Source of the DNA: Candidatus Eiseniibacteriota bacterium
Lineage (GTDB): Bacteria > Eisenbacteria > RBG-16-71-46 > CAIMUX01
Length of the DNA stretch: 53,277 nt
NCBI GenBank assembly: GCA_903844735.1
Contig: CAIMUX010000061.1
Span: 1 to 53,277, forward strand
Direction: 5' to 3'
Shown here: positions 18,041 through 32,725 of the stretch, in pieces
How positions within the stretch are numbered: the stretch's first letter is position 1
Layout of the letters: the number at the start of each line of letters is the position of its first letter
Notes under the pieces: model-generated
What the model was told of the DNA's origin: nothing
Databases searched by the model: none
What the model saw: the letters and a program-made list of their open reading frames with translations, nothing else
Translations under genes and position numbers: made by a program

Positions 18041-18268
18041 GGAGCGACGTTCCGGCCGGGAGCGCTCCCGGCGGTCGCGACCGGAGTTGATTCCGGCGCA
18101 ACACGCGGCTTCCCATCGCCGTACGTGGGACGGTCTGGGGCCTCCTGCCCGGGCACCTGCATGAAGCGGAGGAAAGAGATGGCATCGCAACGGTCCACCG
18201 TCCCACGCCTGCCCGTCCCGCCCCCCCCGTCCCCTAAAGCACCTCTGCTCCAGAGGAGAGTCCGGATC

Positions 18269-20866
18269 ATGAGAAAAAGCCATCCCTTCATTCGCACGGT
18301 CGTCACCCTGCTGGCCCTTGCCGCTCAAGCTCAGGTCGCCCACGCCATCGCGGGGTTCGACCCGCACGGCCGGGGATCCGACTACCCGGACTGTGCCAAC
18401 GGCCGCCTGACCAACCCACCCTCGCTCCCGGCCCACCGGATCGAGCGCGCGCCGATCAAGATGGACGGGCTCCTCAACGAACGCGACTGGATTGCCGCCC
18501 CCGCGGCCACGGGGTTTACCCAGTTCGAGCCTGACCGCGGGGGTGAGCCGGCCGAGGAGACCGTCCTCAAGGTCATCTACGACGACGACGCGATCTACTT
18601 CGGCATCGCCTGCTGCCGCTCCAACGGTACGCCGGTCACGAGCAGCCTGGCCCGCCGGGACAACATCGTCGGTTCCGATCTGATCCGGCTCTACCTCAGC
18701 CCCTATCACGACATGGTCACGGGCTACCACTTCCGGATCAATCCGGACGGGGTCAAGGAGGACTACTACAACTACGGGGACCTCTTTCACGACGTCTCGT
18801 GGGACGCGGTTTGGGACGCCGAAACCTCCACCGACCCGGACGGCTGGTACGCGGAGATCCGCATCCCCTTCTCCTCGATCCGGTACCGGCCGGCCGAGTC
18901 GATGACCTGGGGACTGAACTTGTTCCAGCACATCTACAGTCGCGGTCAGCGCACGGCATGGTCTAACTGGACCCGCGAACAGCAGGGGTTCATGAGCCGT
19001 TCGGGCACCGTGACTGGGATTGAAGGGATCCGGCCGCCGCGCCAGATGGAGATCACTCCGTATGTCGTGGGGAGCGTGGCCGACGGCGCCGCCCTGAGCG
19101 CCCGGGGCTCTCAGGACCAGGACTGGGGTCACTTCGGGAACCTCGGCGCCGATCTCAAGTGCGGGGTGACCGCCGACCTCACCTTGAACGCCACCTTCCA
19201 ACCCGACTTCGGGCAGGTGGAAGCGGATCCATCCCAGCTCAACCTTTCCCCCTTCGAGACCTTCTACGAGGAGAAACGTCCCTTCTTCATCGAGGGCGCC
19301 CAGTTCTTCGAACACCCGAGCTTCAACATGGTCTACTCCCGGCGCATCGGGACCGGCAGCGAGAACTCGCGGATCCGGTTCGCAAGCAAGCTGACCGGCA
19401 AGGTGACGGGCAACCTCTCCACCGCCGTCCTCCTCGCAGCCACGGACGAGACACAGGAGGGTCAGGCTCACAATCCATTCCGCGCGGGAGAAAACCGCAC
19501 GGTCTACGCTATCGGTCGCTTCGGCAAGCAGTGGGGCGGCGACATGCACAGCTTCCATCTCATGCAGACCGCGGTCCGCCGGGACCGGCACCACTTTGCC
19601 GCCCGCACACGAGACGGCTACACCACGGGCGCCGACTTAGAGATGAACTTCAAGGATCGAATGTACCAGGCCTCGGGCTCTTTCGTCGGGAGCATCATCG
19701 ATTACCAGGCCGACCCGGCGAAGCCACGTGGAAACCCCAAGCCCATCTACGGCACCGGGAGCCGCTCCGAGTTCGCGAAGACTTCCGGCGACTGGCGCTA
19801 CGCCCTGACCACGCGACATCAGGGCGACAAGCTCGACCTGAATGATCTCGGCTACATCAGCGATGCCAACCACTACGCGGTCCAGGCCTGGCTGCAGCGC
19901 GCCTACAACGCAGACGACGAAGGCCGGGGTTTCATCACCAGCGCCAGCGGACAGGTGCGGTTCTATCGAAGCTGGATCTTCGCCGATCGAACCTACCGGG
20001 ACCCGCGCGATTCCACCCAGGTGCTCTGGTCCTACCGGCGCGGCCACGATCTGCAGATGAACTGGGTCTTCAACGGCAGCCTCGCGACGCGGGACTTCTG
20101 GTCCGCCCACGGCAACTTCGAGTACGTTCCGGAGAGGACGGAACTCTACGCGACCCGCCTGGTGCCGGGCGGGAGTTCGCGCGGACCGCTCATGAGGTTA
20201 CCGGAGAGCTACAGCAGTTCCGCCGGCGTGTCCACCGACAGCCGCAAGGCCTACGCGCTCAGCCTGGACGGCGAGTGGAACCGGGACGGAGCGGGGAGCC
20301 GGGTTCAGTCCGCCGCGCTGGGTCTCGCGTGGGTGCAGAACAGCCGGGTGACGCACCAGGTCTCTTCCTCGGTCCGGTTTGTGCACGACGAAGCCCAGTG
20401 GGTCGGCAACTTCGAGAACCCCGAGGGAGCGATCGGGGGCGTGAGCTATGCCTTCGCTCCGCTCGACCAGCGGACCTGGGACGTCACGCTGCGCAGCAGC
20501 ATGCTCTTCACCCGCGACCAGTCGCTGGAGCTCTATGTACAACCGTTCCTCACCACCGGAAGCTACGGGTCGGCACACGAGCTGGCCCGGCCCGACAGCC
20601 GCGACTTCCGGCCGCTGGCCGGGATCAACGCGGCGAACCAGGATTTCTCGTACGGGGCTGTGAACCTCAACATGGTCTACCGGTGGGAATACCGGCCTGG
20701 TTCGACGTTCTACCTCGTCTGGACGCAGTCACGCAGCAAGTTCGACATGCGGGCGGACCACGATGTCGCTTCGGACTTCGACAACGGCTTCGGTTTGGAT
20801 CCGCTCTTCCGCAACCGCGGGGAGAACAGGATTCTGGCGAAGTTCACGTACTGGACTCCTGTATGA
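18269..20866 (+). CDS. DUF5916-type outer-membrane beta-barrel protein with N-terminal CBM9-like domain
   Basis: 865 aa with a signal peptide (RTVVTLLALAAQAQVAHA). Residues about 50-240 resemble the carbohydrate-binding family 9-like domain (IKMDGLLNERDW, YFGIACC, GWYAEIRIPFSSIRY). The long rest is the DUF5916 region (FQPDFGQVEADPSQLNLSPFETFYEEKRPFFIEGAQFF), ending in an aromatic barrel-closing strand NRILAKFTYWTP. DUF5916 proteins are predicted outer-membrane barrels, often beside peptidases or polysaccharide enzymes; the exact substrate is unknown. I use the ATG at 18269 (AGGAG upstream, then a proper signal peptide). An in-frame upstream extension from 18125 is low-complexity. No partner gene is adjacent. 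Confidence 0.87.
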   Translation: MRKSHPFIRTVVTLLALAAQAQVAHAIAGFDPHGRGSDYPDCANGRLTNPPSLPAHRIERAPIKMDGLLNERDWIAAPAATGFTQFEPDRGGEPAEETVLKVIYDDDAIYFGIACCRSNGTPVTSSLARRDNIVGSDLIRLYLSPYHDMVTGYHFRINPDGVKEDYYNYGDLFHDVSWDAVWDAETSTDPDGWYAEIRIPFSSIRYRPAESMTWGLNLFQHIYSRGQRTAWSNWTREQQGFMSRSGTVTGIEGIRPPRQMEITPYVVGSVADGAALSARGSQDQDWGHFGNLGADLKCGVTADLTLNATFQPDFGQVEADPSQLNLSPFETFYEEKRPFFIEGAQFFEHPSFNMVYSRRIGTGSENSRIRFASKLTGKVTGNLSTAVLLAATDETQEGQAHNPFRAGENRTVYAIGRFGKQWGGDMHSFHLMQTAVRRDRHHFAARTRDGYTTGADLEMNFKDRMYQASGSFVGSIIDYQADPAKPRGNPKPIYGTGSRSEFAKTSGDWRYALTTRHQGDKLDLNDLGYISDANHYAVQAWLQRAYNADDEGRGFITSASGQVRFYRSWIFADRTYRDPRDSTQVLWSYRRGHDLQMNWVFNGSLATRDFWSAHGNFEYVPERTELYATRLVPGGSSRGPLMRLPESYSSSAGVSTDSRKAYALSLDGEWNRDGAGSRVQSAALGLAWVQNSRVTHQVSSSVRFVHDEAQWVGNFENPEGAIGGVSYAFAPLDQRTWDVTLRSSMLFTRDQSLELYVQPFLTTGSYGSAHELARPDSRDFRPLAGINAANQDFSYGAVNLNMVYRWEYRPGSTFYLVWTQSRSKFDMRADHDVASDFDNGFGLDPLFRNRGENRILAKFTYWTPV

Positions 20867-21543
20867 CGCTTCGTCTGTTACTGGAGGATGTCACCGGCGA
20901 GCCGTTTCCCCAGTTGCTTCTCCTACCCGTTGCCGGAAGCGTGGCAGAAACGCGGGGCTTGACCTTGGTGAACGACCGCACTAAGGGCTCGACAACGTTT
21001 TGATCGCCGGCGCTCCGACCATGAGCGAGGGCCGGATGGAGGTAAGAGACCGCCTCGGCGGGTTGCTGAACTACTACTGCCGGGAGTCGGCGGGCTCCAT
21101 CACCCCCACGAACGCCGCGCCGCCTGATACACGAAGCAGCCTTCACCTATCGCTCCTACCCTCGGCATCAATGCGCCCAGGCTTCATCTTCACGACCCGG
21201 GTGCGGGCCACTCGGCTACCCGTCACGTCCTGGTCACCAGCCTGCGGCGCGCGAGAGGCCCAAATCGAGCCCAGAGAATGGGTCATCAGGGGTTTCAACT
21301 CAGCAATTCGGGATTCCCCCCGCTGGGGACACGGCGGGGCGGACGCCCCCCCACCGAGGCCTTGGAAACGATGATTACTCATCCCTTGCGAATCGGTATG
21401 ATGAAACAAGAAGGCTGCGGGAAGTCACAAGGGCCTGGACGACTTGGAGTCGCTCCCGCTACGCCCTACACCGTCTCGATGATGACGAAGGCGGTTCCCG
21501 GGTGCGCGCATGACGGCGGGCCGCGTTGGGGAGGCACAGACCC
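20867..21543. other. Gene-free region with possible insertion-sequence scar
   Basis: No convincing gene. A + frame at about 21027-21084 reads EVRDRLGGLLNYYCRES, which resembles the closing residues of integrase-core transposases (RLGGLLxYYxRxA), but only about 17 residues match and the frame upstream is unrelated. GC-rich inverted segments occur near 21317-21350. Without database comparison this is only a hint of a mobile-element remnant. Confidence 0.25.
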
Positions 21544-23577
21544 GTGGGTTCGCAGCCGGTATCGACGCCCGCGCGCGTCAAGGAGTTCTCTCTCCTCCAC
21601 CCCGGCCGTTGGGTCGCGGCCTGGACGTTGACCGCCTTCCTCCTGCGCCTCGCAAACTCGCTCGCGCAGCGCCGCAACCCGTTCCTGGCATATCTTCCCG
21701 TTGACCAGGGTTCCTATGACCGCTGGGCGAGCCGGATCGCCGGAGGTGAGTGGCTAGGGCACGGCATCTTCTACCAGGATCCGCTCTACCCATACTTTCT
21801 CGGGCTGCTCTATGCGACGATCGGCCGTCACCTGGTTGTGGTGCTCGTTGTGCAGGGACTCCTCGGCGCGCTGAACGTGCCGCTCCTGTGGGGCATCGCG
21901 ACGCGCCTCTGGGGCGAACGCGCGGGACGGATCGCAGCGCTCCTTGCGGCGCTCTACGCTCCATTCATCTTCTACGACGGGCTGGTGCTGAAGACGTTTC
22001 TGGAGGTCCTCTTGTTGAATGCCGCGGTGCTGGCGACGCTGTGGGCCGCCGACGCCGTGGACCCGAGTCGAGAGAAGAACAGCCCGGCCGGCGGTCGCCC
22101 CGCGGCCACAGTCGTGCGTCGCGGTCTCCTGGCGGGCCTGCTCCTCGGCATCGGTTCGCTCGCGCGAGCGAACTACCCGCTGCTGGCGCCAATCCTGGCG
22201 GCCTGGGTGCTCCGGGCCGGTGGCCGGCCGATGCGTACCCGCGCCGGCTCGATCGGCGCCGCGGCGGTGATCGCCGGGATGCTTCTCGTGCTGCTGCCGG
22301 TACTGATCCGCAACCGCGCGATCGGGCACGACTGGGTCCTGACCACCTCGCAGGCGGGGCAAAATTTCTATATCGGAAACTGCGCCACAAATCAGAGCGG
22401 CGCCTATCAGGCTCCGCCTTTCGTGCGTCCCGACCCGCAGCACGAAGAAGAGGACTTCCGGAACGAGGCACAACGGCGACTCGGGAGCTCCCTGAAGCCG
22501 TCGCAGATCTCACGCTACTGGGCGAGGGAGGCGTGGAGCTTCATTTGGGCCCACCCGGGGCGGTTTGTCGCTCGCAGCGTGACGCGCCTCGGACTGCTGC
22601 TGCACCGGTACGAGATCCCGGACAACGAGGACTTCCGCGTCTGGGCCGGCTACTCACCGTGGCTGCGGTTCAATCCGGTGCGGTGGGACATGGTGGGGCC
22701 ACCGGCCATCGTCGGTCTAGCCCTCTGCTGGCGACAGCGGCGGCGCGCATGGCTTCTCTATGGGCTCACCGGGGTCTACGTCTTCTCAATGGCGGCATTC
22801 TTCGTGCTCGGCCGGTATCGACTGCCGGCGACCTCGCTGTTGCTGGTCTTCACAGCCGGAGCGATCGATGCGGGGTGGACAGCATGGAAAGCGCGGGACC
22901 GTCGCAGGCTCGTCATCGGCGGAGTGGCGCTGCTCCTTGGGATCGTCATCGTACACAGGCCGAACCGGGAGGAAAAGCCGGCTACGTCTCCCGCGTTGTA
23001 CTCTCTCCTGGGAGCGGCCGAGCTCGCTGCGGGCAAGGTGGACGAAGCGCTGGCAGCGCAGCGAAAGGCCGTGGAGCTGGGGCCGAACTCAGCCGAGCTG
23101 CGTTACAACCTTGCGAGCACCCTCTACAGCGCCGGGCAGCTCGACGAAGCGATCGCGGAGTTCCGCCGGGTCACGGCAATGACTCCGGACTACGCCGAGA
23201 CCTGGTCCTTCCTGGGAAATATCCTCGTCGAAAAGGGAGATATCGAGGGAGCCGTGGCGGCGCAGAGGCGCGCCCTGGCGATCCAGCCGAGACTCGGGAT
23301 TCACCTCTACAACCTGGCGCGCGTCCTGGCCCACGCCGGGCGCGATGCCGAGGCGAGCGCTGTCCTCGACACATTGGACGCGGTGAAGGACCCGAAGTAC
23401 ACGCAGGAGGGGAGCATCATCCGCGCCACGCTTTTCGCGAACGCCGGGCGTGTTGCCGATGCGGCGGCGATCGTTCGGGACTACCTGCGCGCCAATCCCG
23501 TTGCTCGCACCCGCCCGCAACTGGAGGCGTTGCTGCGCGCTTGGGAAAAGGGCCAGGTGGGGGCGCAGCCGCGATAG
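21544..23577 (+). CDS. GT39-like (PMT/ArnT-type) polytopic glycosyltransferase with C-terminal TPR domain
   Basis: 677 aa. The N-terminal about 470 residues have some ten TM helices and the GT-C type loop DQGSYDRWASRIAGGEWLG...YQDPLYPYFLGLLY, with acidic residues in the first periplasmic loop where GT-C enzymes bind metal or polyprenyl-phosphate sugar. The C-terminal about 480-665 holds roughly four tetratricopeptide repeats (AELRYNLASTLYSAGQLDEAIAEFRRV, WSFLGNILVEKGDIEGAVAAQRRAL). Likely role is transfer of a sugar from a lipid-linked donor to protein or lipid at the periplasmic face. The TPRs may present the acceptor. The GTG at 21544 follows GGGGAGG by 9 nt; the in-frame TTG at 21526 overlaps that RBS and is unlikely. 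Confidence 0.82.
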   Translation: MGSQPVSTPARVKEFSLLHPGRWVAAWTLTAFLLRLANSLAQRRNPFLAYLPVDQGSYDRWASRIAGGEWLGHGIFYQDPLYPYFLGLLYATIGRHLVVVLVVQGLLGALNVPLLWGIATRLWGERAGRIAALLAALYAPFIFYDGLVLKTFLEVLLLNAAVLATLWAADAVDPSREKNSPAGGRPAATVVRRGLLAGLLLGIGSLARANYPLLAPILAAWVLRAGGRPMRTRAGSIGAAAVIAGMLLVLLPVLIRNRAIGHDWVLTTSQAGQNFYIGNCATNQSGAYQAPPFVRPDPQHEEEDFRNEAQRRLGSSLKPSQISRYWAREAWSFIWAHPGRFVARSVTRLGLLLHRYEIPDNEDFRVWAGYSPWLRFNPVRWDMVGPPAIVGLALCWRQRRRAWLLYGLTGVYVFSMAAFFVLGRYRLPATSLLLVFTAGAIDAGWTAWKARDRRRLVIGGVALLLGIVIVHRPNREEKPATSPALYSLLGAAELAAGKVDEALAAQRKAVELGPNSAELRYNLASTLYSAGQLDEAIAEFRRVTAMTPDYAETWSFLGNILVEKGDIEGAVAAQRRALAIQPRLGIHLYNLARVLAHAGRDAEASAVLDTLDAVKDPKYTQEGSIIRATLFANAGRVADAAAIVRDYLRANPVARTRPQLEALLRAWEKGQVGAQPR

Positions 23578-23609: not shown

Positions 23610-25646
23610 CTACAGAACCTTTCCATCTCGATAGTGGAAGCTGTCTCCCTTGCTCAACGCAGCCAATTTCACCGTCGCCGGGAAGGCGGTGCCCAACTCA
23701 GTGACAAAGTCCCTGAGCCGCACGCCATACTTGCCGCCGTGCATCGGGAAGAACACCTTCGGCTGCAACTGGGCAAGCTGGTACTCGACGCCGATCTTCA
23801 CCGCGACCTGGTCGCCGAAGTTGCACCCCGAGACCGGCAAGAACGCTAGATCCGGACGAACGCCTCTCGCCACCAAACCGTCGATCTGCGGCTTGAACGG
23901 CCCGGACATGTCGCGGTAGCGGTTGGCGTGGTCGCCGGCATGGAAGATGGTGACACCATCCACCTCCACCAAGAACCCGACGCCGCTGTCGTTCGACTCA
24001 ATGGTTGTCACCTTCATGCCGTCGATGTTCTTGCTCTCCCCGGGGGGCAGGTACACATAGTCGGTCGGCTGGACTTGCGGCGGTGCTTGCGTCTGGGCTT
24101 GCGTCTGGACTTGTCCCGGGGCCGGCCGCGGCCGGAAGCCCATGAGGTAGCGAATCCGCGGTATCTGCTCCTTCCACGTGAAGATCGCCGGATCGTAGTG
24201 GTCTCCGTGTTCGTGCGAAACAAAGACGGCGACGTCCTCGCCCGCCAGCTCCATCGGATTGATGCTGCCGTTCTGCAAGCTCGGCTGATCCGGATTGCGC
24301 CCCATGACCCCCGCATCGAAGATCAAGACGTGGTTCTTCGTCTTCGCCGCCCAGCCGCTGTGGCCCAAGCTCCACACGAACGCCTCGTCCGATCCCGGTC
24401 TCGGCAGGACAAACGGCGCGGACGATGCGCCATCGCGGTCCGATGCCGACTGCGCGCCGGCGGCTGCCAGCGCCTCGACCACACCCCGTTGCCCGTACTG
24501 AAGCGCCACGTCAAGAGGCGTGCGCCCTTCACGATCGCGGGCATTGACCTCAACACCCCTTGACAGGAGGTTCTCCGCCACATCGCGATAGCCGAGAAGC
24601 GCGGCGAGATGCAGGGGCGTCATCCCGAAGTCAACCTGGGTCGGTTTGGGGTCCGCACCGGCCTTGAGGAGCAGGTCCACGGTCTCGGCATTTCCATTGT
24701 CCACCGCGACCAAGAGGGGTGTCTGCCCCCATTCACTTCGCACATCGGGCTTGGCGCCATGCTCCAGCAGAAGCTGCACCATCGGCGCCCCTCCATGCGA
24801 TGCCATGATGATCGGAGTGGAATTCCGACGATCGACGGCGTTGACATCCGCCCCGCGCGCCAGCAAGACCCGCGCAACGTCCGGGCGATCGAACATGGCG
24901 GCATAGTGCAGCGGTGTTGTCCCGTCGGAGTCAGCCGCTGCGACGTTGGCGCCCCGGGCGATCGTCTGTTCCACCCGCTCGGGGAAGCGTCCCTGGCAGA
25001 CCAGATGCAGGGGCGTCCGTCCCTCCCCGTCGCCCCGATTGATATCGCCGCCTGCGGCGAGGATCGGATCCACCAGTCCCCACAACCCGCGCGAGCAGGC
25101 ATAGTGCAACAAGGTTGTGCCCTGTGGCGTGCAGAGATTCAGATCGGCGCCCGCATCAAGGATCAGGCGCACACAAGCACTGTCCCCTCCGCTGGCGGCG
25201 AAACTCAGGCTGTAAGCACCGTTCTTGTCGCGCCGGTTGACATCGGCGCCCCGAGAGAGAAGAAAGCGCACCATCTCCGGCTTGCGGACGACCGCCGCAC
25301 AATGGAGTGCGGTGCTGCCATCGCTGTCGATGCCCTCGATCTCTCCGCCCGCGTCCAGCAGCAATTGTGCGATCTCCACCTGCCCGGCGTAGGCCGCGGT
25401 GTGTAGGGGCAGATCCCTCGTCGGGTTCTCGTTCGGCGCGCTGGCCAGGGATGGATCCTGCCGCAGCAACGCCTCGACCCTCGCCCTGTCGCCGGCCGTG
25501 ATCGCGTCGTGGATCTCACCGGCGTGAGCTAGCGGCGCTGCGATCGCGGCCAGGATCATCACAAGACTCATGACGAAAACCGGCCCGCGCAGATCCCCGC
25601 GCCGGCCCCGGTGAACGACAGGTCTGGACTGCGTGCTCGAGTTCAT
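23610..25646 (-). CDS. Exported ankyrin-repeat protein fused to metallo-beta-lactamase-fold hydrolase
   Basis: 678 aa. A signal/TM segment at about 24-42 precedes roughly eleven ankyrin repeats (about 45-400; recurring DxxGxTPLHxAA with RGADVNA). A metallo-beta-lactamase domain runs from about 420 to 678 with the metal motif SHEHGDHYD, a later FHAGDHANRY and the closing HGGKYG. The MBL part resembles the UlaG-like L-ascorbate-6-phosphate lactonase/Zn-dependent hydrolase group. A Gln-rich insert (QVQTQAQTQAPPQVQ) interrupts the MBL domain. The ATG at 25646 has GGAGG 8 nt upstream. It lies 126 bp downstream of the LytTR regulator gene on the same strand and may be its target or operon partner. 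Function is unknown; the Ank-MBL fusion is unusual. Confidence 0.88.
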   Translation of the reverse strand: MNSSTQSRPVVHRGRRGDLRGPVFVMSLVMILAAIAAPLAHAGEIHDAITAGDRARVEALLRQDPSLASAPNENPTRDLPLHTAAYAGQVEIAQLLLDAGGEIEGIDSDGSTALHCAAVVRKPEMVRFLLSRGADVNRRDKNGAYSLSFAASGGDSACVRLILDAGADLNLCTPQGTTLLHYACSRGLWGLVDPILAAGGDINRGDGEGRTPLHLVCQGRFPERVEQTIARGANVAAADSDGTTPLHYAAMFDRPDVARVLLARGADVNAVDRRNSTPIIMASHGGAPMVQLLLEHGAKPDVRSEWGQTPLLVAVDNGNAETVDLLLKAGADPKPTQVDFGMTPLHLAALLGYRDVAENLLSRGVEVNARDREGRTPLDVALQYGQRGVVEALAAAGAQSASDRDGASSAPFVLPRPGSDEAFVWSLGHSGWAAKTKNHVLIFDAGVMGRNPDQPSLQNGSINPMELAGEDVAVFVSHEHGDHYDPAIFTWKEQIPRIRYLMGFRPRPAPGQVQTQAQTQAPPQVQPTDYVYLPPGESKNIDGMKVTTIESNDSGVGFLVEVDGVTIFHAGDHANRYRDMSGPFKPQIDGLVARGVRPDLAFLPVSGCNFGDQVAVKIGVEYQLAQLQPKVFFPMHGGKYGVRLRDFVTELGTAFPATVKLAALSKGDSFHYRDGKVL

Positions 25647-25772
25647 AGCGGTATCCTCCTCGGTTGGTCACGGCTTACGGAGACTGTGCGCTCGGGGATG
25701 CCACCGGGGTGCCAAAATGCGACGAACCGGTCCGGACAGGGGATGAAGGGGCACCACCGGGCGACGAGATGT

Positions 25773-26684
25773 CTACAGGCGGTCGCCTAGGAGTATCTCC
25801 AATTTCTCTCGGTAGATCCTGGTGAGCTTCAGTTCACGGCCGGTGGTGAGGCGAACCAAGTGCTCGCCGCGCGACGCCGGTTCGAGATCCTTCACGCGGT
25901 CCAGATTGACGATGGCGGATCGGCTGGTTCGGGCGAAGTCTCGGGCCGGCAGACGTATCTCCATCTCATTCATGGTGCGCCGCAGCAGGTACGACTGCGT
26001 GCCGACATGCAATCGAACATAGTCACCATAAGCCTCAATCCAATCCACGGTGGTGATCCGGAGGAAAAAGACCCGCCCGCTGCTCTTGATGACAAACCGG
26101 TCGAAGAGCGGGTCGGCAGCGCCGGCGGCGGGCACGGCACGGTCTGCCGTTGCGCCGGATCGAGAAACGCCGGGCGGGGTCACCTTGGTCCCGTCCTGGG
26201 CGTCGCCGGAACGGGGAGCGGGTTCCGAGAGCTGGAATAGCGGCTCCGCGCGCTGTGCCCTGCCGTCAGGAGTCATCTCGCGGCCCGCTCCGCCCCCGGA
26301 TCCCAATCGCCGCATCTCGGCCACCCGCTGGCGGCAGGCCTGCAGTGTCTCGGCGAATCGTTCCTCCTCGATCGGCTTCAGCAGGTAATCGAGGGCATGC
26401 ACCCGAAACGCCTCAATGGCGTAGCGATCGAACGCGGTGATGAAGACGATGGCCGGCAGGCTCTCGGCCTCAAGCCGCTCGATCACCGCAAAGCCATCGA
26501 GGTCGGGCATGCGGATGTCGAGAAACACAAGATCGGGACGCATCCCGGCGATGGCCCCGATCGCCTCGCGGCCGTTGGCGCATTCGCCGACGATGACGAA
26601 GTCGTCAATGCCCTGCAATCGCAGACGCAGGTTCTCGCGCGCCAGCGTCTCGTCGTCAACAATCAGGGTCCGAATCGGATCCAT
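25773..26684 (-). CDS. LytTR-family response regulator
   Basis: 303 aa. The receiver domain (1-120) has acidic pocket DDE near residue 9-11, phospho-acceptor D in VFLDIRMPD, Thr in FITAFD and Lys in YLLKPIEEE. After a Gly/Ser/Pro-rich linker of about 80 residues comes a LytTR DNA-binding domain (about 205-300; FLRITTVDWIEAYGDYVRLH, FARTSRSAIVNLDRV). The ATG at 26684 lies inside the end of the kinase gene (29-bp overlap), so the two are translationally coupled. It forms a pair with the LytS-like kinase; likely targets include the downstream ankyrin-MBL gene. Confidence 0.92.
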   Translation of the reverse strand: MDPIRTLIVDDETLARENLRLRLQGIDDFVIVGECANGREAIGAIAGMRPDLVFLDIRMPDLDGFAVIERLEAESLPAIVFITAFDRYAIEAFRVHALDYLLKPIEEERFAETLQACRQRVAEMRRLGSGGGAGREMTPDGRAQRAEPLFQLSEPAPRSGDAQDGTKVTPPGVSRSGATADRAVPAAGAADPLFDRFVIKSSGRVFFLRITTVDWIEAYGDYVRLHVGTQSYLLRRTMNEMEIRLPARDFARTSRSAIVNLDRVKDLEPASRGEHLVRLTTGRELKLTRIYREKLEILLGDRL

Positions 26685-27825
26685 TTCCTCCACCGCTTTC
26701 TGCCCGCCGAAACGGAATGTACATGGTCGCAAGCGTCCCGCCTCGGAGCGCCGCGCTCAGCGAGAAACTGTGCCCCCCCGGATAGAGCTGGACCAGGCGC
26801 TCCCGGATGTTTCGCAGACCGATCCCCTTTCCAGACATCTGGGCTTCCTGCAAACCCGGGCCATCGTCCTCCACCTCGAGGACCACCGCGTCACCGCGGC
26901 GGCGTGCCCGCACGATAATCGTTCCGCCGTCCGGGCTCTGACCGATCCCATGTTGGATCGAGTTCTCGACCAGCGGTTGCAGGATGAGGCTTGGCACCGC
27001 AGCCACGAGAACATCTTCCTCCACCTGGGTCTGCACCGTGAGGCGATCACCGAACCGTACCTTCTGGATCCGTAGGTAGGCGTCCAGGAACTCAAGTTCC
27101 AACGCCAAGGACACCGTTTGCATCTGCGCGCTCTCCAGTGTCAAGCGCAGGAATCGACTCAACTGGGCAAGCATCTGGTCGGCCGCTCGGGCGTCACCCT
27201 TCAGCACCAGGGTCGAGATGGCGTGGAGCGTGTTGAACAGGAAGTGCGGCTGGAGTTGCATGCGCAGCGCCTCCAGCCTGGCCTCCGAGAGGGAGGCTCG
27301 AAGCTGCGCTCGCTCCAGCACGAGCACCGCCGTCTCCCGCTCCCGCTCCCGGTCGCGCGCGTAGGTCTCAACCAACCAGGTGCCCCCCGCGATGATCAGA
27401 TAGAACATAATTCCGCGGTCCATGATCGACGCGACCATCTTGGGAATGGTCTCGACAAACGTCTTGGCATCAAACGGCTTAGGGTTTTGGAAGAGGAAGT
27501 ACCAAAGCTGAAAGGTGACGGTATGGAGCACCGTGAAGACAACGATCCCCGCGGCATGGACGAGGATCGCGCGCCGGCGCTTCCCATCCTCCCAGGGAAA
27601 CCGGCGAGCCAGCCAGATCACCGGTGTCGTGAAGAGTGCCACGAAGACCCAGAACGGCAGGTTGGCCTGGATCAGCTTCCCCCAAACCACCGCGTCGCCT
27701 TTGGCCGCCGAGATCAGGACGAACCAGGCAACGTCCAGAAACCCAAGGATCTGCCAGAAACCAAACGCGATGAGCAGCAGCAGCCACCATCTCGGGCCCG
27801 GCTTCATCGTGAGTTGCGAGTCCAT
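26656..27825 (-). CDS. LytS/YehU-type sensor histidine kinase
   Basis: 389 aa. Four hydrophobic segments fill the N-terminal about 155 residues (LLLLIAFGFWQILGFLDVAW, NLPFWVFVALFTTPVIWL, ILVHAAGIVVFTVLHTV, IMFYLIIAGGTWLV). A short coiled coil follows, then the His_kinase domain with H194 in LQPHFLFNTLHAIS and the ATPase boxes LQPLVENSIQHG and VEDDGPGL...GIGLRNIRERL. No extracellular sensing domain of any size, so the signal is probably membrane-related or carried in the membrane. ATG at 27825 follows GGAGG closely (3 nt); an in-frame ATG at 27846 is an alternative. Confidence 0.9.
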   Translation of the reverse strand: MDSQLTMKPGPRWWLLLLIAFGFWQILGFLDVAWFVLISAAKGDAVVWGKLIQANLPFWVFVALFTTPVIWLARRFPWEDGKRRRAILVHAAGIVVFTVLHTVTFQLWYFLFQNPKPFDAKTFVETIPKMVASIMDRGIMFYLIIAGGTWLVETYARDRERERETAVLVLERAQLRASLSEARLEALRMQLQPHFLFNTLHAISTLVLKGDARAADQMLAQLSRFLRLTLESAQMQTVSLALELEFLDAYLRIQKVRFGDRLTVQTQVEEDVLVAAVPSLILQPLVENSIQHGIGQSPDGGTIIVRARRRGDAVVLEVEDDGPGLQEAQMSGKGIGLRNIRERLVQLYPGGHSFSLSAALRGGTLATMYIPFRRAESGGGNGSDSDPDC

Positions 27826-27846
27826 TTTCCTCCAAACGCGACGCAT

Positions 27847-28826: not shown

Positions 28827-29111
28827 TCACACCATCCGTTCCACGCCCCAGACGATCATCCGCATCTTCTCGCGGCAGTCGGAGCACTGCGTGTCGATGT
28901 CCGCGAGCAACTCGTCGACCTTCGCCTTCTCCACCACTGTGAAGATGATCGACGAAGTCTCGGGGAAGGCCCGCGAGCCCAGTCGCATCCCGGTCCGGCC
29001 TGTTCCGTAGACGGTGGGAATCTCCGTGTAGCCGAGAACCGCGTGCTCGGAGAGGGCCGCTTCGACCTTCTCCTTGTGCGTGCTCTCCACCACGATCATG
29101 AGCATCTGCAT
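28827..29111 (-). CDS. P-II-like small signalling protein at the end of an RND efflux operon, with CxxC motif
   Basis: 94 aa with a ferredoxin-like P-II pattern: MLMIVVESTHKEKVEAAL, a T-loop-like segment YGTGRTGMRLGSRAFPETSS, and a second beta-alpha-beta unit. This matches the PII-like proteins found beside RND and carbonate/metal transporters rather than GlnB/GlnK (no uridylylation-type YRG loop). A CSDC pair at C76/C79 could bind a metal or be redox-active; that is an inference. It starts 32 bp after the DUF2892 gene (RBS AAAGAGGTG). Likely role: sensing a ligand or metal and modulating the pump. Confidence 0.75.
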   Translation of the reverse strand: MQMLMIVVESTHKEKVEAALSEHAVLGYTEIPTVYGTGRTGMRLGSRAFPETSSIIFTVVEKAKVDELLADIDTQCSDCREKMRMIVWGVERMV

Positions 29112-29362: not shown

Positions 29363-32300
29363 TTAAACGGCCGTTCGCGACCGCGGCTCCGCCGCCTTAG
29401 GCTGCCGCCCACGCATGTACATGTAATAGAGCAGCGGAATCACGACCAGAGTCAGAGCTGTGGCCACCACGACACCGAAGATCAGCGACACCGCCAGCCC
29501 CTGGAAGATCGGGTCCAGCACCATCACGAATCCGCCGGCGACCAGGGCCGCTGCCGTCAGCACGATCGGCCGAAAGCGCACAGCCCCCGCCTTCACCACG
29601 GCATCCTGCAATGGCGTCCCCGCCTCGATCTCCAGGTTCACAAAGTCGACCAGGAGGATCGAGTTGCGCACGATGATCCCAGCCAGCGCGATGAACCCGA
29701 TCATGGAGGTAGCGGTAAAGAAGATCCCGGTCATCCAGTGCCCGGGCAGGATCCCGATGAGGGTCAGTGGGATCGGCGCCATGATGATGAGCGGAGTGAT
29801 GAAGCTGCCGAACCAAGCCACCACGAGGACATAAACCAAGAGCATGACCACGCCGAAGGCGATCCCCATATCGCGTCCCACTTCGTAGGTGATCTGCCAC
29901 TCGCCGTCCCACTTCAGGGCGAGCAGGTCGTCGTTCTTCGGCAGATCGCGATACAGCTGGCTGATCTCGTATCCCTCGGGTAGCCGGATCGCCTTGATCT
30001 TCTCTTTGAGGTTCAAGACTCCGTAGATGGGGCTCTCCTGTGATCCCGCCACTTCTCCGGTGACATAGACGACGCGCCGGAGGTTCTTGTGGTAGATCGA
30101 GCGATCCTCCTTGACTCGCGTCGCGTCGACCAGTTCGGAGAGCGGCACCATGCGCCCATCGGGAGAGTGCAGCGACACGCTGGACAACTCGGCCAGGCGT
30201 GTGCGCGCTCCGCGCTCCATGCGCAAGACGATCGGCACGGTTTCCCGGCCTGTCTCTGTGTGCAACATGCCCACGTCGGCGCCGGCGCCAAGAATGTAGA
30301 GACTCTGTGAGATCATCTCCGGGGTGATCCCGGCCTGCGCGGCCCGCTCAAGGTCCACCCGGAAATCAATCCGATCCTGCGGATCCTCAACAAACCAGTC
30401 GACATCCGCGATGCCCTCGGTGGACTCGAAAATCCGCTTCACCTGGGCCGCCACTTCGGTCTGCCGTGCGAGGTCGGGACCGTAAATCTCCGCCACCATG
30501 GTGGAAAGAACCGGTGGCCCGGGCGGTACCTCAGCGACCTTGACCCGCGCACCGTATCGCTCGGCCACCGGTTGCAGCAAGGGGCGTACCCGCTTCGCGA
30601 TGGCGTGGCTCTGCGTATGGCGGTGCTTCTTCTCGGCCAGGTTCACCTGGATGTCCGCGACGTGCGGCCCCTGGCGCAGGAAGTAGTGCCGGACCAGACC
30701 GTTGAAGTTGATCGGCCCGGAGGTCCCGACGTACACCTGCATGTCGGTCACCTCGGGCTGCTCGCGCAGCACGGCGGCAAGCGCGCAGGTCGCCGCCTTG
30801 GTCTGCTCGAGGGACGAGCCCTCCGGCATGTCGACCACCACCTGAAACTCGCTCTTGTTGTCGTAGGGGAGCATCTTCACCCGCACGGCGCGAACCAGAA
30901 CCAGGCCGATCGACCCCGCGAGGAGAAGCACCACGGCGCCGAGGGCGAGATTGCGCAGCCCGGGACGAAGGATCAACGGCGTCACGATTCGCGAGTACAC
31001 CCGCTCGATCCGCCCCTCCGCCGGTGTCTCGGCCGCGGGCCCACCGTGCCCACCTTGGGATGTGTCCCCCCTCTGGGGGCCGTGCCCACCTTCGAGAGCG
31101 CCCACCTTCTGGAAACCGTGCTCGCCGAGGTGCGGCCCCTTCTTGAGTACGCGCAGGGTGACCCACGGCGTGACGACGAAGGCCACCAGGAGCGAAAAGA
31201 ACATCGCCGCGCTGGCGTTGATTGGGATCGGCCGCATGTAGGGCCCCATGAGCCCGCTGACGAACGCCAGCGGCAGCAGGGAGGCGATCACCGTGAAGGT
31301 GGCCAGGATGGTCGGGTTGCCTACCTCATCGGTCGCGTAGATGGCGGCGCGCAAAGGCGTCGTCCAACCCATCTGGAAGTGACGGTGGATGTTCTCCACC
31401 ACCACGATGGCGTCATCGACCAGAATTCCGATGGCGAAGATGAGTGCGAAGAGGGTGACGCGATTGAGGGTGTAGCCCATGAGATAGCTGAACGCGAGGG
31501 TGAGGGCGAGCGTCACCGGCACGGCCACCGCCACCACCACTGCCTCGCGCCGACCGAGGGCGAAGAACATCAACAACACGACCGCCAGTGTGGCGATAAG
31601 AACGTGGCCGATCAGTTCGTTGGACTTTTCCGCGGCCGTCTCGCCGTAGTCGCGGGTGACCGTAACCTCCACACCGCTGGGAAGAGACGAGCGCCTCATT
31701 CGCTCCACTACCGTCATCACCTGCTTGGCCAATGCCACAGCATTGCTGCCGGTTTTCTTGGAAACGGCGATGGTGACGGCGGGAAGGCCGACCGGGTCCC
31801 CGCTGATCCCCTTGTCGGCGCTGAGGGGGCCGGCTCCGAAGAGAACCATGCTGGCCAGTTCCTCGGGGCCGTCGGTCACCGTAGCCACCTCGCCGAGGCG
31901 AATGGAACGACCGTCGCGCACGCCCACCACCACCTCACGAACATCGTCCACGGTGCGGAGGAACCGCCCGGAACTCAGGAGCACCTCGCGGTCCCCTTCC
32001 GAGAAGGAACCCGCGGGGAGTCTCCAGTTCGCTTGCTTGAGAGATTGCGCGACCGAAAGGCCACTCACTCCGTACGCCTCGAGACGCTCGGGGTCGAGGA
32101 TGACGCGCACCTGGCGCCGCTCCCCGCCGATCAGATCCACGGCGGAGATGTTGGGGATCTTCTTGATCTCCAGCGCCATCTCGCCGGCGATCGAACGGAG
32201 CTGGAACCCATCGTGTTCGCGACTCCAAAGCGTGAGCGCCACAATCGGCACATCATCAATCGACTTCGGCTTCACCAGGGCAGGGCCCGCACCCGGCGGC

Positions 32301-32725
32301 ACCCACTCCGGGTGGGCCATGATCTTGGTATACAGCTTGACGAGGCTCTGCTCCGGATCAGAACCAACCTTGAAACGGACGATGGCCATCCCGAAGCTCG
32401 GACTCGATGTGGTATAGACATACTCCACGCCGGGGATTTCCCACAGGAGCCTCTCCAGCGGTGTGGCGATGCGCTCTTCGACCTCCTTCGCCGAGGCGCC
32501 GGGGAACGGAACCATCACATCGATCATCGGGATCTTGATCTGCGGCTCTTCCTCGCGGGGGGTGATGATCACCGCGAAGATGCCGATGGCCAGCGCAGCC
32601 ACCACGAGAAGAGGCGTGAGCTTGGAATTGATGAACGCCTGCGAAGCCTTGCCGGCCGGGCCGAGCGCTTTGCGGGCCATCTTCAGATGGGCGGCCTCGC
32701 GATCGCGGTCACTCTGCCCACTCAT
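29363..32725 (-). CDS. RND superfamily efflux pump inner-membrane subunit (AcrB-like, HAE type)
   Basis: 1120 aa, somewhat longer than AcrB. It has the duplicated RND layout with twelve TM helices and two large periplasmic loops. TM4 carries the proton-relay pair in GILVDDAIVVVEN (the HAE pattern; metal pumps usually have VDA). Early porter-domain signature: VPFPGASAKEVEERIATPLE. A Gly/His-rich insert of about 50 residues around position 550 (GGHGPQRGDTSQGGHG) in the central cytoplasmic loop is unusual. Function: proton-driven export through adaptor and TolC channel; substrate unknown. It overlaps the adaptor stop (ATGA). DUF2892 and P-II-like genes follow in the operon. Confidence 0.94.
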   Translation of the reverse strand: MSGQSDRDREAAHLKMARKALGPAGKASQAFINSKLTPLLVVAALAIGIFAVIITPREEEPQIKIPMIDVMVPFPGASAKEVEERIATPLERLLWEIPGVEYVYTTSSPSFGMAIVRFKVGSDPEQSLVKLYTKIMAHPEWVPPGAGPALVKPKSIDDVPIVALTLWSREHDGFQLRSIAGEMALEIKKIPNISAVDLIGGERRQVRVILDPERLEAYGVSGLSVAQSLKQANWRLPAGSFSEGDREVLLSSGRFLRTVDDVREVVVGVRDGRSIRLGEVATVTDGPEELASMVLFGAGPLSADKGISGDPVGLPAVTIAVSKKTGSNAVALAKQVMTVVERMRRSSLPSGVEVTVTRDYGETAAEKSNELIGHVLIATLAVVLLMFFALGRREAVVVAVAVPVTLALTLAFSYLMGYTLNRVTLFALIFAIGILVDDAIVVVENIHRHFQMGWTTPLRAAIYATDEVGNPTILATFTVIASLLPLAFVSGLMGPYMRPIPINASAAMFFSLLVAFVVTPWVTLRVLKKGPHLGEHGFQKVGALEGGHGPQRGDTSQGGHGGPAAETPAEGRIERVYSRIVTPLILRPGLRNLALGAVVLLLAGSIGLVLVRAVRVKMLPYDNKSEFQVVVDMPEGSSLEQTKAATCALAAVLREQPEVTDMQVYVGTSGPINFNGLVRHYFLRQGPHVADIQVNLAEKKHRHTQSHAIAKRVRPLLQPVAERYGARVKVAEVPPGPPVLSTMVAEIYGPDLARQTEVAAQVKRIFESTEGIADVDWFVEDPQDRIDFRVDLERAAQAGITPEMISQSLYILGAGADVGMLHTETGRETVPIVLRMERGARTRLAELSSVSLHSPDGRMVPLSELVDATRVKEDRSIYHKNLRRVVYVTGEVAGSQESPIYGVLNLKEKIKAIRLPEGYEISQLYRDLPKNDDLLALKWDGEWQITYEVGRDMGIAFGVVMLLVYVLVVAWFGSFITPLIIMAPIPLTLIGILPGHWMTGIFFTATSMIGFIALAGIIVRNSILLVDFVNLEIEAGTPLQDAVVKAGAVRFRPIVLTAAALVAGGFVMVLDPIFQGLAVSLIFGVVVATALTLVVIPLLYYMYMRGRQPKAAEPRSRTAV

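Follow-up and report, generated by a model that had tools for sequence, protein, structure and literature searches.

The locus considered here raises the question of what a single predicted protein that joins a long ankyrin solenoid to a metallo-beta-lactamase (MBL) domain might do, and whether the two-component system encoded beside its gene controls it. The gene lies in a stretch of 53,277 nucleotides from Candidatus Eiseniibacteriota bacterium (contig CAIMUX010000061.1), hereafter referred to as the window. A first-pass annotation had described the product as one exported chain with eleven or so ankyrin repeats ahead of the enzyme domain. Both points are borne out: one 678-residue open reading frame (ORF) carries both Pfam parts, export being predicted, and the model contains eleven repeat helix pairs. 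The gene and its parts are as follows.

23610..25646, minus strand: Ank-MBL fusion gene, 678 residues (ORF list, Pfam, whole-length model)
25518..25646, minus strand: putative signal peptide, residues 1-43, AHA/GEIH (hydropathy maximum at residue 23; by eye)
24462..25487, minus strand: eleven ankyrin helix pairs, residues 54-395 (model secondary structure and Pfam Ank)
23613..24389, minus strand: MBL domain, residues 420-678 (Lactamase_B_3, model of residues 415-678, Foldseek)
24078..24119, minus strand: low-confidence Gln-rich loop, residues 510-523 (pLDDT below 50; shorter in relatives)

The ORF starts with ATG, with GAGGAGG eight bases 5′ of it. Pfam recognises PF00023 (Ank) at E 2.8e-67 and 219.2 bits (cut-off 21.1) and Lactamase_B_3 (PF13483) at E 7.1e-6 and 26.5 bits, above a curated cut-off of 24 that is also passed by all eight MBL-bearing relatives scanned (8/8). 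The full-length model, built on an alignment of 33 proteins and giving no interdomain error estimate, has a mean pLDDT of 89.1 and a pTM of 0.83; the linker is poorly modelled (residues 403-411, pLDDT below 50), and the MBL fold begins at residue 421. The N-terminal hydrophobic segment ending AHA/GEIH, as read by eye, is a putative type I signal peptide, and many related ORFs start similarly. The Gln-rich insert previously noted inside the enzyme domain is real (about residues 505-531), but it occupies a low-confidence loop of variable length that is some 16-18 columns shorter in the nearest relatives.

The surroundings of the gene are varied. A convergent gene at 21526-23577 (plus strand) matches PMT_2 weakly and encodes TPR repeats at its C-terminus, and 18125-20866 (plus strand) encodes a DUF5916 protein (PF19313, 194.8 bits). 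On the minus strand, a 94-residue P-II family protein (28827-29111; PF00543, 36.1 bits) adjoins an ORF of 1120 residues (29363-32725) which, by eye, resembles an RND efflux transporter; relatives of P-II are known beside RND genes for metal efflux.

Directly upstream of the fusion gene lies the kinase-regulator pair.

25773..26732, minus strand: LytTR response regulator (Response_reg and LytTR, Pfam; likely true start ATG 26684, by eye)
26656..27846, minus strand: membrane histidine kinase, PF06580 and HATPase_c, motif QLQPHFLFN (Pfam; hydropathy)

The regulator combines a receiver with a LytTR domain (PF04397) that scores 65.8 bits against a cut-off of 22.6. Simple hydropathy places hydrophobic segments within residues 19-155 of the kinase, which is probably multi-pass and devoid of a recognised input domain. 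The label of LytS/LytTR pair given in the first-pass annotation holds for the LytTR regulator and for a PF06580 kinase but not for the LytS input domain, since PF07694 was not listed up to E 1 for the kinases of the window, L016 and L021, in a search whose HMMER filters drop most matches above about E 0.1.

Homologues of the pair are found upstream of the fusion gene at four other loci. At L016, L018 and L023, they are immediately adjacent, in the same order and on the same strand (42-43% identity to the window for the kinase, 42-44% for the regulator), and at L021 they lie 2.4 kb upstream with other genes intervening (kinase 36%, regulator 47%). In these four genomes, the regulators concerned are the highest-scoring matches to the window regulator. 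A kinase homologue was found in 4/43 sequences searched, several of which have flanks below 600 bases and are not judgeable for the pair, and the other regulator matches were partial. Neither gene was found in a second set (0/17 sequences, three with less than 1 kb of flank), and the pair is absent beside the fusion copies of genomes G005 and G046. Conservation of the pair beside every family member is ruled out by these last two observations. Only three LytTR matches occur in the 5.4-Mb window genome, so that chance adjacency to the fusion gene is unlikely. Related regulators are nevertheless common in the class (26/47 genomes match at E 1e-24 or better, and most of them lack the fusion gene), so that the window pair represents a single branch within a large family. 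The regulator has a close paralogue (L176, 175-975; 69% identity in the receiver and 58% in the DNA-binding domain) at the very start of contig C26, where any kinase belonging to it falls off the contig. This paralogue was considered as the mark of a second target and rejected, as nothing precedes the regulator on its contig and the next noteworthy ORF is oriented the opposite way.

The gap between the regulator and the fusion gene contains a repeated element.

25718..25768, minus strand: predicted LytTR-binding array with a period of 21 bp (sequence pattern)
25760-25768, minus strand: array half-site CTCGTCGCC (sequence pattern)
25739-25747, minus strand: array half-site TTCATCCCC (sequence pattern)
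25718-25726, minus strand: array half-site TTCGTCGCA (sequence pattern)

The search for a LytTR site upstream of 25646, suggested beforehand, thus returned a predicted array of LytTR type. In the portion of PMC4847170 consulted, almost all LytTR sites are described as 9-11 nt repeats with 11-13 nt spacers, and the 9-nt half-sites of the window at 21-bp steps (9+12) fit this format as a sequence pattern. The element before the window fusion gene, GGACCGGTTCGTCGCA (25718-25733), has related elements before the fusion genes of L021 (GGACCGATTCGTCGCA), L023 (GGACCATTCGTCGCT), L016 (GGTCCATTCGCCGCA) and L018 (GGACCGTCTGTCGCA, spotted by eye). Copies resembling TTCGTCGCA stand 21 or 42 bp apart in 4/5 loci, with half-sites before the fusion gene at -122, -101 and -80 in the window, -138 and -96 in L021, -163, -142 and -100 in L016, and -164, -143 and -101 in L018, the second copy being weak in L023. 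The window and L021 share 15/16 bases of GGACCGnTTCGTCGCA. With up to one mismatch, the L021 16-mer has a single match in the 53-kb window, at the array, for 0.01 expected; with up to three mismatches, its matches in the window do not exceed chance (4 against 4.6 expected). A period of 21 scores 21.3, against 12.3 for the next best of 29 periods, and this value is reached by 0/5000 shuffles and by 0/2000 when each shuffle is free to pick its best period (mean 14.4, largest 18.7); the score weights three branches equally, and the motif was found by inspecting the same five loci, three of them close relatives.

Across the window genome, the two-half-site pattern has one exact match (25718-25767) and the single motif one, at the array; the patterns were drawn partly from the window site, and these counts show just that no second perfect copy was found. 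Elsewhere in that genome lie 18 one-mismatch matches to the single motif. With up to two mismatches, the two-half-site pattern gives 66 matches against 49 for a reversed control, and the single motif gives 232 matches against 122, coding and upstream sequence being pooled in both cases; because the match lists are not sorted into the two, further targets in the window genome are possible. Within the L021 locus (12.7 kb), the highest-scoring array (17) stands directly before the fusion gene and a weaker one (14) further upstream, while in L023 the only pair of half-sites scoring 14 or more falls inside the fusion gene and not before it. Upstream regions were compared for five loci with the kinase-regulator pair and 40 without it, omitting L020 and L037 (start unclear), L004 and L005, and broken, cut, masked, ankyrin-less or duplicate entries (L029, L031, L040, L042, L046, L049, L050, L149, L154 and L155). 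Array scores are 13-17 in the presence of the pair and, in its absence, 14 for L015, 13 for L033 and 12 or less for the other 38. A sigma-70-like promoter was sought and not found. The site is conserved and evenly spaced, and the regulator probably binds it to switch the fusion gene on.

How far these loci count as separate cases depends on their history. In a tree of 59 MBL domains, from which L042, L049 and L050 were left out, the window, L021 and the L016/L018/L023 group fall in one clade of 20 (99/96) whose branch order is unresolved. The 15 other members, in which the pair was not seen (some have short flanks), group weakly (84/80). This clade structure gives three branches with the pair rather than five independent cases, and the association between pair and fusion may have arisen once. 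End branches of 0.54 and 0.73 for the MBL domains of the window and L021 indicate that the two are far diverged.

Altogether, these observations lead us to favour, with a probability of roughly 0.6, a model in which a LytTR two-component circuit dedicated to one gene induces an exported, ankyrin-docked UlaG-like hydrolase. The membrane PF06580-type kinase would sense a signal and phosphorylate the LytTR regulator, which would bind the repeats of 21-bp period that lie immediately before the fusion gene and would thereby activate the gene. The fusion protein would then be exported by the Sec route and work in the periplasm or outside the cell. Its eleven-repeat ankyrin solenoid would hold an MBL hydrolase with a UlaG-like metal site, in which Asp stands for the third His. 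As the repeat type suggests, the ankyrin part could dock the enzyme on a partner protein or on a carrier of the substrate (the first-pass annotation had proposed that it could bind a protein inhibitor or present substrate), and the enzyme would hydrolyse an ester, lactone or phosphodiester bond. The fusion, its domains, their conservation, the gene order and the site array were computed here, and phosphotransfer, DNA binding, the direction of regulation, export, catalysis and docking are inferred. The control circuit envisaged in the first-pass annotation is thus strengthened by the pair upstream in four other loci and by the array, regulation itself being predicted.

The alternative that survives best, although unlikely, is that the pair is merely a neighbour, the fusion gene being constitutive or read through from the transcript of the pair, and the repeats a remnant of ancestral synteny. 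Read-through would be possible across the short gap that follows the regulator stop codon, few family members have the pair nearby (4/43 and 0/17, as above), and the second half-site of L023 is poor. It is, however, harder to reconcile with the 15/16 bases that the window and L021 keep despite their far-diverged MBL domains, with the 21-bp periodicity, and with the position of the strongest L021 array before the fusion gene despite the intervening genes. The L023 result and the one-mismatch near-matches led us to weigh the dedicated circuit slightly lower, and mere adjacency slightly higher.

The second part of the preferred model concerns the enzyme, whose metal site comprises the following residues.

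24198..24215, minus strand: HEHGDH metal motif (HxHxDH), residues 478-483 (row conservation)
23988..23990, minus strand: Asp553, in the column of the canonical third metal His (alignment column)
23928..23942, minus strand: HAGDH, residues 569-573, with Asp572 (39/39 rows) and His573 (38/39)
23739..23741, minus strand: His636, the last metal His (39/39 rows)

The metal motifs had been described as intact, which is correct for HxHxDH, Asp572 and His636 but not for the third His, replaced here by Asp553. Conservation was assessed over 39 rows, comprising the window and L013-L050; one row is truncated ahead of the first motif. H478, D482 and H483 are kept in 38/38 rows with a letter there and H480 in 37/38, Cys608 is kept in 38/39, and the third-His column holds Asp in 38/39 and Glu in 1/39. 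In nine more distant rows without ankyrins (L051-L059), the same column has Asp in six and His in three. The presence of Asp in 6/9 ankyrin-less rows indicates a change wider than the ankyrin family, which, judged from these rows, predates the fusion or had more than one origin. HxHxDH, a later Asp, a last His and no third His together make up a metal site of UlaG type.

Modelled alone, the MBL domain (residues 415-678, 264 residues) reaches a pLDDT of 89.9. Foldseek returns UlaG (2wym) as its first match (E 1.9e-14, 16% identity); a full-length fold search was filled by ankyrin matches. VIA-align Z values are tied or nearly so for CPSF73 (21.7), Igni18 (21.4), TM_1162 (20.9), UlaG (20.6) and RNase J (20.6), and this DALI-like comparison did not separate UlaG from CPSF73, Igni18 or TM_1162. 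By sequence profile, the closest solved structure is the UPF0173 protein TM_1162 (3x2z; E 1.2e-9), and the NCBIfam model PRK00685 (UPF0173-type hydrolase) scores 30.3 bits against a cut-off of 144. The earlier designation as UlaG-like therefore stands on the Foldseek ranking but not on Z, and the domain is a predicted UlaG-like hydrolase. The term metallo-beta-lactamase is used as a fold name only, and drug resistance is not claimed.

The tied Z values of CPSF73, Igni18 and RNase J also suit a different activity, in which the MBL domain would be a nuclease or phosphodiesterase of CPSF73/RNase J/RNase Z type acting on exported or environmental nucleic acid, with the ankyrins as a scaffold. This appears rather unlikely, since the domain of 264 residues, judged from its model, would leave no room for a beta-CASP domain, UlaG tops the Foldseek matches, and Asp replaces the third His of zinc-dependent MBLs. 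The same loss of the third metal His could instead point to a non-enzymatic metal- or ligand-binding module, the ankyrins doing the work in the way that AnkB supports catalase; periplasmic ankyrin proteins needed for catalase activity are indeed known (extract of PMC7567364). This reading is improbable, because the other metal residues and His573 are kept (37/38 to 39/39 rows) and a dead enzyme would hardly be expected to keep them. A UlaG-like hydrolase thus remains the preferred reading of the domain.

The fusion itself is not confined to the window. Among 99 genomes, the window's own included, three others belonging to its order or class have the MBL domain at 54-61% identity; the fused ORF is complete in two of them and truncated by the end of the contig in the third. 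Three more distant genomes have weaker MBL matches. The distribution is patchy: of the 46 other genomes of the class, those three alone have the MBL domain. Scanning named genomes yielded 68 loci, and 47 of them were read. Ankyrin repeats, recognised by a simple pattern (regular expression), and the MBL domain share one frame in 33/36 loci (L013-L048); the ankyrins of L029 and L031 lie in another frame directly upstream of the MBL domain, and L040 has none. One of the 33, L015, duplicates the contig of the class relative L005. Both parts were confirmed by Pfam in 6/6 fused relatives scanned. Contig ends truncate L049 and L050, and ankyrins were looked for in L051-L059 and not found. Among 16 further loci from the phylum of L018, including L149 (the same locus as L031) and the partial L154, 14 align through both parts, and 20/80 genomes of that phylum have a match at E 1e-30 or better. 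An architecture search for Ank plus MBL, asked for beforehand, has thus found a fused family across several phylum labels, the records being assigned to Eisenbacteria, Krumholzibacteriia, Zixiibacteriota, WOR-3, Cloacimonadota, Aminicenantes, Bacteroidetes and Phycisphaerae, among others. The Ank-MBL fusion is a real family common to many uncultured bacteria. That the assembly joined two separate genes, a proposal for which no supporting point was found, has a negligible probability and is ruled out by the recurrence of the fusion in 33/36 loci and among genomes of the window's own order and class.

A viral origin was likewise rejected, the viral_contigs scan having given 102 pattern matches and no relative, and plasmid records gave seven MBL matches at 23-28% identity. 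Two family members occur in one record in two instances (L026 with L037, and L033 with L042; CP070824.1 and CP070813.1), which indicates that the family has paralogues. Ten neighbour genes of family loci were scanned as a clue to the substrate. They vary in kind (serine beta-lactamase fold, ABC ATPase, PQQ propeller, Ntn hydrolase, PALP, sensor kinase and others, with one lacking a match) and share no common theme. A serine beta-lactamase-fold protein with TPR repeats directly precedes the fusion gene at L022 (3046-4524), and a CBAH-type hydrolase with TPR repeats directly follows it at L035 (6786-7997). In Cloacimonadota, an ABC ATPase ends 19 bp before the fusion gene at L028 (3182-3883, by Pfam) and 8 bp before it at L032 (3905-4564, by BLAST cluster), and large permease-like ORFs are seen by eye around both.

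More tentatively, and at somewhat less than even odds, these proteins would form a new, widespread family of exported, ankyrin-docked MBL enzymes with a mononuclear UlaG-like site, partly under a single-target LytTR circuit whose operator, a 21-bp tandem of TTCGTCGCA, is conserved between Eisenbacteria and Krumholzibacteriota. If so, a periplasmic UlaG-type hydrolase would be aimed at its target by an ankyrin solenoid, and an enzyme family that has no name but is widely shared and apparently exported would gain testable predictions for its regulator, operator and active site. A laboratory host would suffice to test the regulator-operator pair, with no need to grow the source organism, and the ankyrin part would offer a handle for pulling out the partner.

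Comparison with known systems places each element of the model. UlaG, an L-ascorbate-6-phosphate lactonase, is described in PMC3219644 as lacking the third metal His, with Asp184 as the nearest residue, and as using Mn. The present domain resembles it (2wym, 2wyl, 3bv6) as the first Foldseek match and in having Asp553 in the third-His column. The two differ in that identity is 16% and an ankyrin solenoid precedes the domain here, whereas UlaG has N-terminal helices (a three-helix arm) and C-terminal elements for oligomerisation, and in that Asp572 and His573 are neighbours here, unlike Asp226 and His228 of UlaG (same extract of PMC3219644). UPF0173 TM_1162 (3x2z) is the closest solved structure by profile, but the PRK00685 score falls far below its cut-off; the distant rows L056, L057 and L059, UPF0173-like by eye, keep the third His. 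AnkB-type proteins likewise place ankyrin repeats in the periplasm, as predicted here, but the part of PMC7567364 consulted mentions no MBL domain for them, and no catalase was found among six window genes scanned with Pfam.

On the regulatory side, the closest analogy may be with BtsS/BtsR and YpdA/YpdB of E. coli, in which, according to the section of PMC5552118 seen, BtsR and YpdB each control one gene; a LytTR regulator with a membrane kinase and apparently one target would recur here. The same section defines LytS kinases by 5TM-5TMR_LYT (PF07694), and by that definition the window kinase, for which PF07694 was not listed to E 1, is not of LytS type. In contrast to both E. coli systems, this domain was not detected and the target is a hydrolase, theirs being a transporter. 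The likeness to AlgZ/AlgR is one of DNA sites: the AlgR core is CCGTTCGTC (excerpt of PMC4064291), and the half-sites CGGTTCGTC of the window and CCATTCGTC of L023 are one base off it. AlgR sites lie at several promoters (algD, algC, fimU and rhlA, in the same excerpt), whereas tandem 21-bp repeats stand at one gene here. No description of a bacterial Ank-MBL fusion was found in the part of the literature searched; in giant viruses, some MBLs have been annotated as ankyrin repeat proteins (extract of PMC10340364). Each domain and the type of circuit are thus of known kinds, and what is new is their combination, its spread and the operator.
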